Below, in pieces: positions 6,274 through 8,610 of a DNA stretch of 64,000 bases. How positions within the stretch are numbered: the stretch's first letter is position 1; each line of letters opens with the position of its first letter. A program made the translations under genes and the position numbers. The stretch comes from Pseudoselenomonas ruminantium (GTDB taxonomy: Bacteria; Bacillota; Negativicutes; Selenomonadales; Selenomonadaceae), in the NCBI RefSeq assembly GCF_900142515.1, contig NZ_FRBC01000011.1, positions 1 to 64,000 of the forward strand. The letters run 5' to 3'. Below the pieces are notes generated by a model that had not been told where the DNA came from, made no database searches, and saw nothing but the letters and a program-made list of their open reading frames with translations.

Positions 6274-7701
6274 TCAACAGATTCCTGTCAACATATAAAA
6301 TAAAATGCACAAAAACGGCACCAAAAACTTCATACCCATGATAACGGCAATATCAAAATAAGATTCATTATGTGTGAGCCCACAAATTGCCAATAACGTT
6401 ACCAAAGCACCACAATGCGGTACTGGATCGATACCCACAGAGGCCACTGCTACAATACGATGCAAGACTTCCAAGGGAATCCCAGCAGCAATGGCCATCG
6501 CTGCCCATTGATCCCCCAGTGCAGACAGAGCTATCGTCAGACCGCCAGAAGCCGATCCAGTAATGCCGCACATGATATTGGTGGTAATGACTGCCGAAAG
6601 CAGCGGCCCAAAGCTGGCAGCAATCCCCACCAGCCATTCCGTCACAGGGGCAAATCCCGGCATAGCCGTGATGACACAGCCAAAAGCATAACCAGATGCC
6701 ACATTCAGAGCAGCCGAACCCGAAGACAATGCCGCATAATTCACCGTTGGCAGGATCCCATCCGTTACCTTCAAACGGTGACGGCCAATATACGCTGCTA
6801 CAATGCTACTGAGAATCAGCGCAACACTGATGGACCATATAGCTGATACTTTTCCCACATGAGAGGCCAATAACGTCAGCTTCAACGGGACAAAGGCTGT
6901 CAGACTCTCTTCATTCCAGTGAAAGCCCCATTCCCATCCGAAAGGATTAGACAGAATCACATTGATAACAATGACCATCAAAAGTGGTACCATCGCCCAA
7001 TACCAAGGGATATTGATTTTGGGGTTGCGCTTCTTGCGGCCATCACTGCCATGATCGCCATATCCTTCACCTCTGCCCTGTAACAGTTTTGCCCGGCGGC
7101 CAATCCAGCCCCAGCCTATCAGCAGGAATAAAAGTGAAGCAAAAAGGCCAATTCCTGGAGCAGCCCAAGTACTTGTCTGAAAATAAGATGACGGAATAAT
7201 ATTCTGAATTTGCGGAGTTCCAGGAAGAGATACCATAGCAAACGAGAAAATCCCCACCCATAAGGCAGCGGGCAAAAGCCTTTTGGGAATATCCGCTTTC
7301 TTAAACACCACCGCACCAAAGGGATACATAACAAAAGCAACAACAAATACAGACAGGCCGCCATACGTTAGAGCACCACATCCCATCAATACTGCCAAAA
7401 TTGCCCTTTTCTCCCCTAGGACATCCACAATCTTGCCTGCTATGGCAGAGGCTAAGCCCCCTTTTTCCATCAGCTTAGCGAAAACTGCGCCAAAAAGAAA
7501 AACAGGATAATACGTTTTCACATATTCTGCCAATCTGGTCATGTAAAGCTCACTATAGACAGGCAGGATATCAAACATGCTGGCTAATGCTGCCAGCCCT
7601 GCAAAAAACGGTGCAATCAAAATGATCGACCATCCACGGTAGGCAAAATACATAAGCCCTAAAAGTGCTAATCCGATACAAAGTGCTTCCATGGTGTCCA
7701 A
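6274..7701 (-). CDS. GntP-family permease
   Basis: A 475-residue polytopic membrane protein of the GntP family (gluconate:H+ symporter-like; members also move D-serine, glycerate-type or hydroxy acids). Support comes from the length, the long hydrophobic segments throughout, the YGGLSVFVVAFVMYPFG and VSLPGTPQIQNIIP stretches in the first half and the GITGSASGGLTIALSALG stretch in the second half. The substrate is unknown. TTG at 7701, 3 bases after AGGGGAG, is one possible start; ATG at 7692 is the alternative. It stands alone behind a long leader containing a cobalamin riboswitch and two terminators, which suggests repression when B12 is plentiful. Confidence 0.85.
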   Translation of the reverse strand: MDTMEALCIGLALLGLMYFAYRGWSIILIAPFFAGLAALASMFDILPVYSELYMTRLAEYVKTYYPVFLFGAVFAKLMEKGGLASAIAGKIVDVLGEKRAILAVLMGCGALTYGGLSVFVVAFVMYPFGAVVFKKADIPKRLLPAALWVGIFSFAMVSLPGTPQIQNIIPSSYFQTSTWAAPGIGLFASLLFLLIGWGWIGRRAKLLQGRGEGYGDHGSDGRKKRNPKINIPWYWAMVPLLMVIVINVILSNPFGWEWGFHWNEESLTAFVPLKLTLLASHVGKVSAIWSISVALILSSIVAAYIGRHRLKVTDGILPTVNYAALSSGSAALNVASGYAFGCVITAMPGFAPVTEWLVGIAASFGPLLSAVITTNIMCGITGSASGGLTIALSALGDQWAAMAIAAGIPLEVLHRIVAVASVGIDPVPHCGALVTLLAICGLTHNESYFDIAVIMGMKFLVPFLCILFYMLTGIC

Positions 7702-7735
7702 AGACTCCCCTCGTAGAAAATATACTATGTAAATG

Positions 7736-7768
7736 GAAAAAAATAAGCTCCGATAAGCTTATCGGAGC
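7736..7768 (-). terminator. Second intrinsic terminator in the GntP leader
   Basis: A perfect 22-base palindrome at 7747-7768 (arm GCTCCGATAAG) is followed on the minus strand by TTATTTTTTT. It ends only about 35 bases before the GntP start, so transcripts must read through it to express the permease. An open frame starting at ATG 7819 runs across the stem. Confidence 0.8.
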
Positions 7769-7824
7769 CGCTGTGACAAGCACAGCCAATCCATAGAACT
7801 GAATGAAATGTATGAGCATTTCTT

Positions 7825-7844
7825 CCTGTTAGTCCCCTAACAGG
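7825..7844 (-). promoter_or_regulatory. Small hairpin masking an AGGA motif in the GntP leader
   Basis: CCTGTTAG and CTAACAGG form a perfect 8-bp stem with a 4-base loop. On the minus strand its 3' arm contains AGG of an AGGAAG that precedes ATG 7819, so the hairpin could hide a ribosome-binding site for a leader frame. This is inferred from sequence only. Confidence 0.35.
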
Positions 7845-7881
7845 AAAAACTTTTCGACAAAAGCAAAATAGGCAAAATAAT

Positions 7882-7906
7882 AGCTCCTCCCGCGCAGGGA
7901 AGAGCT
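7882..7906 (-). terminator. Riboswitch expression-platform terminator
   Basis: AGCTC (7882-7886) pairs with GAGCT (7902-7906) and, after one mismatch, TCCC with GGGA. On the minus strand ATTATTTT follows. Its position just after the cobalamin aptamer makes it the likely switchable terminator. Confidence 0.7.
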
Positions 7907-7989
7907 TATTTACGCTACTCAAAAATACCCACACTAACTCAGGCTCCAAGAACTTTTCAGTACCGATAAATCTCCATCCCCATCACTCG

Positions 7990-8170
7990 CAGGTCAAACG
8001 GCGATTGTTAATCAGGCAGTTCTCCTGGCTCCAGATCAACATTTATCTGCGCCTTCCCAAAGAAAAATCTCCAGTGACGTAACTATGCAGACAAACTCCC
8101 TGTTACAGTGGCGGGACCGCGCCGGCTTTTACCGACTTCCCTATTAAGTCTAAGACACCTGACCCAACCT
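7990..8170 (-). ncRNA. Cobalamin riboswitch
   Basis: The minus strand carries the conserved aptamer core: GCCGGCGCGGTCCCGCCACT (8112-8131 region), preceded by GGGAAGTCGGTAAAA. Further along is the B12-box-like AGCCAGGAGAACTGCCTG (about 8013-8030). A closing helix may form between GGGTCA near 8160 and TGACC near 7992. The element binds adenosylcobalamin or a related corrinoid and normally shuts down expression downstream. The next substantial gene on this strand is the GntP permease. The outer limits are approximate. Confidence 0.92.
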
Positions 8171-8201
8171 ATATTCTATTGGTCTTTCGTTTACAATATG
8201 T

Positions 8202-8230
8202 ATATTAACATAAATTTTCTTTATTGTCAA
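8202..8230 (-). promoter_or_regulatory. Promoter of the riboswitch/GntP transcript
   Basis: TTGACA (8230-8225) and TAATAT (8207-8202) are 17 bases apart on the minus strand, with TG one base before the -10 box. Transcription would begin near 8195, just ahead of the aptamer. Confidence 0.75.
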
Positions 8231-8250: not shown

Positions 8251-8610
8251 TCACACCGCCTTGAACTCTTCCTCGGCATATCCAAAACGCGTAGTCAGGC
8301 GGTAAATCATACGACTATCCTTGAGGCTGCGGATGGTAATATGATCAATATCCCGGAGCATGCTCTTGATATCCATGACGGCAGCCATGCCGCTGATATA
8401 TTCAGTGGCCCGTTCCATTGTCATCTTATGCCGTTCTGGCACCAAAGCTCCTGTATGATATATGTCCATACACACCCGTTCATCCCTATCCACAGAGTGA
8501 CGACAAAGTTCTGGTTCCCAGGCATTGTTTATCTTTTTCACACGTTCGATAAATTCCATCAGGTCTTGCTTCCTCCAACCAACACAATGATATTGAACAA
8601 TCAATTCCAT
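8251..8610 (-). CDS. Small protein of unknown function
   Basis: I do not recognise this 119-residue, mostly hydrophilic protein. It has no signal peptide, membrane segment or Cys cluster, and looks like a mixed alpha/beta cytoplasmic protein. ATG 8610 has no clear Shine-Dalgarno; ATG 8559 (about 102 residues) has GGAGG 12 bases upstream and may be the real start. It follows ligA on the same strand and lies just upstream of the riboswitch promoter. Confidence 0.55.
   Translation of the reverse strand: MELIVQYHCVGWRKQDLMEFIERVKKINNAWEPELCRHSVDRDERVCMDIYHTGALVPERHKMTMERATEYISGMAAVMDIKSMLRDIDHITIRSLKDSRMIYRLTTRFGYAEEEFKAV

Follow-up and report, generated by a model that had tools for sequence, protein, structure and literature searches.

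What does a cobalamin riboswitch control when the gene that follows it is a permease rather than a B12 gene? The question is raised by a locus of Pseudoselenomonas ruminantium (assembly GCF_900142515.1, contig NZ_FRBC01000011.1, positions 1-64,000, hereafter the window), whose genome is close to Selenomonas ruminantium. The original prediction saw there a two-terminator leader through which B12 controls a GntP-family permease, with a short frame from ATG 7819 adding a layer of translational control. Our analysis indicates that the segment 8195-7737 on the reverse strand very probably encodes a small RNA (sRNA) that acts in trans and is controlled by its own cobalamin riboswitch.

The riboswitch locus and its permease

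The Rfam scan placed a cobalamin aptamer (RF00174) at 7998-8177 (-) with 95.7 bits (E 1.4e-22) against a curated cut-off of 31.5, covering the full model (1-189), and a scan at relaxed thresholds returned nothing credible beyond it. The sigma-70 type promoter of the riboswitch/sRNA unit, TTGACA-17-TAATAT, lies at 8202-8230 (-) and is kept in all S. ruminantium relatives possessing that stretch. Between the aptamer and the 3' part of the sRNA stands the intrinsic terminator T1 (7882-7906, -; 10 pairs, 6 of them G-C), followed by the terminator T2 (7737-7769, -), with a 10-pair hairpin at 7769-7746 and a T tail running to 7737. Terminator-like sites within the stretch numbered 10, compared with 3.2 +/- 1.6 in shuffles. 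A hairpin that masks AGGA, placed by the original prediction at 7825-7844, is found at approximately 7821-7849 (-) with AGGA in its 3' arm, and its stem covaries across genera, since in 5 of 7 consensus pairs both partners changed and pairing was kept. The leader after the aptamer folds much more stably than shuffles (z -7.3). The aptamer, promoter, first terminator and hairpin of the original prediction were therefore all recovered; T2 was recovered as well, though it most plausibly marks where an RNA ends and would act as a barrier in front of the permease.

The window aptamer is one of five cobalamin riboswitches in this genome, the others lying upstream of mutA/mutB/meaB, of cbiK, of an opp/nik-like ABC transporter and of a btuF/btuB/btuCD group. 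These genes were assigned by reading the proteins, and family models confirmed the genome's own mutA together with CbiK and CbiL of relatives. The riboswitch upstream of mutA (methylmalonyl-CoA mutase) is accompanied by a terminator (locus L050, 9333-9516, -, contig C38); an off switch before this B12-dependent enzyme would be odd. On the other side of the window riboswitch, between it and ligA, a 119-codon frame (8251-8610, -) is kept in S. ruminantium (L006, 4103-4423) and is without a Pfam or NCBIfam match.

The permease gene occupies 6274-7701 (-), starting at TTG 7701 or ATG 7692. Its protein had no match at 1e-3 in Pfam or NCBIfam (best CitMHS, E 0.088). The GntP_permease model (PF02447) left it unmatched and recognised 4 of 19 aligned relatives (best 1.8e-14), and distant relatives match CitMHS as well as GntP_permease. 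The structure model (mean pLDDT 70) resembles INDY/NaDC/TRAP-M transporters (TRAP membrane subunits), and distant homologues (40-44%) adjoin genes reading as hydroxybutyrate and CoA-transferase functions. Within the ion-transporter (CitMHS/GntP-like) superfamily, the permease belongs to the organic-anion carriers, and the predicted name "GntP family" expresses distant kinship only.

Distribution and architecture of the module in Selenomonadaceae

Alignment of the leaders of permease loci with a riboswitch revealed the near-invariant sequence ATTGCTCATACATTTCATTC between T1 and T2. The conserved pairing region of the predicted sRNA, or seed, is TGCTCATACATTTCATT (7802-7818, -), directly 3' of the AGGA hairpin, and has perfect complements in the 5'UTRs of B12 genes. 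As a 17-mer it occurs in 96 of 189 genomes of the family, mostly as a single copy; the reversed pattern, used as a control, gave a handful of matches overall. In the loci retrieved, the sense 17-mers lie 119-297 nt downstream of a cobalamin aptamer, except for one at 468 nt, which is the second member of a tandem pair, and one paralogue without an aptamer. The recurring module is thus cobalamin aptamer - T1 - hairpin - UGCUCAUACAUUUCAUU - T2, and a permissive scan found T1-like (5') and T2-like (3') candidates, each a hairpin plus U run, in most of 65 modules. Outside the family, matches with one mismatch were coding sequence, many in apparent mnmG, and the module therefore looks confined to Selenomonadaceae.

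The gene downstream of the module is not constant: it may be the permease, mutA, cbiK, a gene reading as serS, or a gene on the opposite strand. The permease follows the module in S. ruminantium sensu stricto, in Anaerovibrio-type genomes and in G042, whereas sister Selenomonas species (88-90% permease identity) and most other genera have the permease without a riboswitch, the sister clade carrying its module upstream of mutA. An ordinary cis leader, in which the riboswitch controls the permease via T1 while T2 and its surroundings form a second attenuator, would fit S. ruminantium sensu stricto, where the permease begins 35 to about 75 nt past T2, inspection of the interval found no clear promoter, and a long-range fold could open T2. 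But this explanation is unlikely in view of the modules before mutA, serS, cbiK and opposite-strand genes, of the permease's own promoter (TTGACA...TTAATAT) after T2 in Anaerovibrio-type genomes, and of the complements in distant 5'UTRs described below. Given the varying neighbours, the recurring T1 and T2, the covarying hairpin and a motif more unpaired than its surroundings, the stretch that runs from the promoter to T2 resembles an sRNA gene; its promoter, its T2 and its variable neighbours mark it, at the level of sequence, as an independent transcription unit. The module is best read as a small RNA controlled by a B12 riboswitch, which would move between loci independently of the permease, and in the relatives examined the output downstream of the aptamer would mostly be a T2-ended RNA, not a fixed gene.

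In the Anaerovibrio-type loci (L026-L042) and the loci of genus g22 (L089, L097, L098), the permease's own promoter is preceded or overlapped by a palindrome, ATAACY-N3-4-RGTTAT, which is likely a transcription factor site. Two copies of the 3' part of the module flank about 15 kb in G164 (contig C8, 1868873 and 1883714; L145, L146), one of them adjoined by an integrase-like gene; the pair is possibly a mobile element using the sRNA gene as its attachment site, or a duplication. Tandem cobalamin riboswitch units precede mutA in G161 and G162 (L142, L143), with the seed in both units in G161, and the leader of these loci also holds a seed complement, GATGTATGAG, which makes autoregulation possible.

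A second explanation of the conserved motif is a leader-peptide attenuator, in which translation of the frame from ATG 7819 (MLIHFI...) controls T2. The frame exists (82 codons) and crosses T2 as predicted, a GGAG-like sequence is well spaced from an NTG in nearly all modules, and six codons are common to them. Against this, the start is ATG, TTG, GTG or CTG, the length varies from 7 to 90 codons, the C-terminus is not conserved, and changes within the motif alter amino acids (H to Y, F to S, and variants at the motif end). We rejected a translated leader frame on the grounds of its variable start, length and C-terminus; pairing with mRNAs explains the conservation of the motif, and the leader peptide is accordingly highly improbable. 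In place of the proposed second layer of translational control, the T1-T2 stretch reads as an RNA that has a 17-nt region conserved for pairing.

Consistent with a pairing RNA, the seed is both conserved and accessible, with a predicted unpaired probability of 0.65 against a background of 0.40. In S. ruminantium it is predicted to be locally about half unpaired (0.42-0.52), and in the predicted fold of S. ruminantium sensu stricto it pairs in cis with 7934-7923: the sequence GTGTGGGTATTT (7923-7934, -) would pair with AAATGCTCATAC in the seed around T1. GTGTGGGTATTT is the S. ruminantium counterpart of the anti-motif AGAACTGAATG of relatives. In other Selenomonas and in genera g22 and g23 the cis partner AGAACTGAATG complements CATTCAGTTCT, which comes after the seed, and this complementarity accounts for the conservation of the CATTCAGTTCT extension, although the extension is not itself a target site.

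Complementary sites in the 5'UTRs of B12 genes

Among the motif hits were several opposite-strand complements, located inside the 5'UTRs of B12 genes. The complement is present in the 5'UTR of cbiK in G079, G101, G109 and at L028 (cbiK sites belong to genus g11 and one other genus), of cbiL in G012 and G007 (L173, L194), and of a BtuF-like lipoprotein gene in G064 (L201). In g11, 24 of 25 readable cbiK 5'UTRs carry it with exact runs of 10-21 nt, one of the 24 sites pairing via wobbles and a few reaching 10 nt only; throughout the comparisons, close relationship between genomes leaves fewer independent observations. The site usually lies right behind a promoter, flanked on one side by an anti-Shine-Dalgarno strand (CTCCTCAGC and variants) and on the other by the Shine-Dalgarno sequence (GAGGAGG), and 3' of the seed the g11 RNA contains GCTGAGGA, which is complementary to that anti-Shine-Dalgarno strand. 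The arms of the stem masking the Shine-Dalgarno sequence vary between genomes yet remain complementary. When the anti-Shine-Dalgarno strand and the seed site were covered, the mean predicted accessibility of the Shine-Dalgarno sequence rose from 0.19 to 0.53, with a gain above 0.1 in 18 of 24 cases. Since the g11 RNA would cover the anti-Shine-Dalgarno strand, activation of cbiK at low B12 is predicted.

Duplexes between sRNA and UTR of the same genome reached z -6.1 to -9.3 in 13 of 14 pairs and -3.0 in the remaining one. Matched pairs exceeded mismatched ones (p 0.001), mainly owing to G052 and G066, in which RNA and UTR had changed together. In g22 a gene of the SHMT family 3' of the permease has a 5'UTR with ATGTATGAGCAA amid divergent flanks; in G169 the RNA reads TGCTCATATATTTC (C to T) and the SHMT-like UTR AATATATGAGCAA (G to A), a compensatory change that represents one event. 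These results also bear on a third explanation, a protein-binding sponge RNA that, as EutX/Rli55 with the ANTAR regulator EutV, would not pair with mRNAs. Such an RNA would share the plan of a B12 riboswitch followed by a short RNA, and the conserved hairpin 5' of the seed could be accommodated by it. The conserved part is nevertheless single-stranded, perfect complements of it lie in 5'UTRs of B12 genes, and RNA and sites show matched and compensatory changes, which leaves the sponge a very small probability. The Rfam scans gave no ANTAR-like match.

The distribution of sites relative to riboswitches further supports the RNA-pairing reading. None of the 19 cbiK genes with a cis cobalamin riboswitch has a target site, whereas 27 of the 38 without one do, and several of the remainder are themselves preceded by the module. 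In g11, G068 has a cis riboswitch and no site, while G022 has a target site and its congener G023 a cis riboswitch; judged from these sequences, there are at least two separate cis/trans swaps of cbiK. As the examined cbiK genes carry a riboswitch or a site, never both, they amount to a natural experiment on the shift between cis and trans control.

The permease shows a parallel exchange, with the cis module in the window and a 13-nt target site for the RNA in its 5'UTR in G064 and G081 (L087, L088). The permease would thus seem to belong to the B12 regulon, by position in the window or by sRNA site in those two genomes. The predicted link between B12 and an organic-acid-type permease downstream of a riboswitch with two terminators therefore seems real, but not in the form of a permease leader as such. 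Two candidates were discarded: the permease 5'UTR as a general target, its long match being limited to G064 and G081, and the mutA leader, whose matching stretch is not conserved across strains.

Candidate targets in S. ruminantium and a proposed B12-sensing RNA

Conserved distant complements with covariation were found in relatives and not in the window's own genome. Among 16 Selenomonas genomes, no long conserved complement appeared besides the RNA gene, a search for long wobble complements gave back only the RNA gene and scattered matches, most of them in coding sequence, and a duplex scan of loci of the own genome gave noise. The own genome has eight exact 11-nt matches to the seed, the RNA gene counted among them, and three fall on start codons, those of metH, a TRAP dctM and a gene resembling nuoF, with the families assigned by family models. 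At metH the site is AGGAGATGAATGTATGAGCAG, would form 12 Watson-Crick pairs and one G-U, and was picked post hoc by match hunting. The start codons of dctM and the nuoF-like gene (L353 1500, C27; L356 1500, C36) read ATGTATGAGC, complementary to the seed as at metH. Pairing at the metH start at low B12 is a candidate mechanism by which the ribosome site would be blocked and this B12-dependent enzyme repressed.

The sequences themselves show the conservation, the complementarity, the mutual exclusion of target site and cis riboswitch, and one compensatory change; we infer transcription, B12 dependence, activation and any effect on the permease, in the following course of events. With B12 bound, transcription would stop at T1 and yield the aptamer alone; at low B12, transcription would pass T1 and end at T2, giving an RNA of about 455 nt. 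By its sequence this RNA carries the covarying hairpin followed by the mostly unpaired, conserved UGCUCAUACAUUUCAUU, which is complementary to, and would pair with, the 5'UTRs of cbiK, cbiL, the BtuF-like gene, the permease and the SHMT-like gene of relatives. In g11 the RNA would also cover the anti-Shine-Dalgarno strand of cbiK, freeing the ribosome site and activating synthesis of the cobalt chelatase, and in S. ruminantium read-through of T2 may additionally express the permease. We put forward only tentatively, as a possibility somewhat short of probable, the wider scheme of a B12-sensing RNA regulon, in which the sRNA would activate genes of B12 synthesis and uptake and repress metH in S. 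ruminantium, while genes swap freely between a cis riboswitch and the trans RNA.

Several known RNAs resemble parts of this system. In Listeria, Rli55 carries a B12 riboswitch, is made as a full RNA when B12 is absent and acts as a protein sponge (PMC8079631). Rli55/EutX (Listeria, Enterococcus) is alike in that a B12 riboswitch decides the completion of a separate regulatory RNA, but it sequesters EutV via an ANTAR element, whereas the Selenomonadaceae RNA has a seed for several B12-gene mRNAs. AspocR, an antisense RNA of Listeria under a B12 riboswitch, acts on a message with ties to B12 metabolism (PMC8079631); the control of the RNA and the B12 tie of its target are shared, while AspocR is a 1.4-kb cis-encoded antisense RNA for one gene and the present RNA is short, distantly encoded, has several targets and is predicted to activate. 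The terminated SAM riboswitch product SreA of Listeria pairs in trans with the prfA 5'UTR (PMC8079631). SreA/SreB are thus riboswitch-derived RNAs that pair in trans with a 5'UTR, but SreA is the terminated product at high ligand, and here the read-through product at low ligand would be the active one. Compared with ordinary cis cobalamin riboswitches (RF00174), the aptamer and T1 are standard, and the downstream output, mostly a T2-ended RNA, differs.

Cofactor-sparing sRNAs of the RyhB type are produced under scarcity of a cofactor or metal and have multiple targets. The Selenomonadaceae RNA would likewise be made in scarcity for several targets, and its candidate metH site would be sparing; it differs in that the sensor is a riboswitch within the RNA instead of a repressor protein, and in that activation is predicted for its clearest targets. 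A search of the open literature, with subscription journals mostly outside its scope, turned up neither this RNA nor any base-pairing sRNA replacing B12 riboswitches. Riboswitch-controlled RNAs are known; one that pairs with mRNAs in place of cis B12 riboswitches appears new.

In teaching, a riboswitch is presented as controlling the gene beside it. This gut and rumen family appears to have made one into a diffusible signal, passing from B12 sensor to RNA to distant B12 mRNAs; because the RNA would pair with distant messages, one B12 sensor could control distant genes. To our knowledge very few sRNAs are known in these bacteria, for which the system offers a testable sRNA-target pair. Propionate production in the rumen depends on B12, and the B12-RNA system bears on it. 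If true, the metH pairing would give S. ruminantium a B12-sparing counterpart of RyhB.
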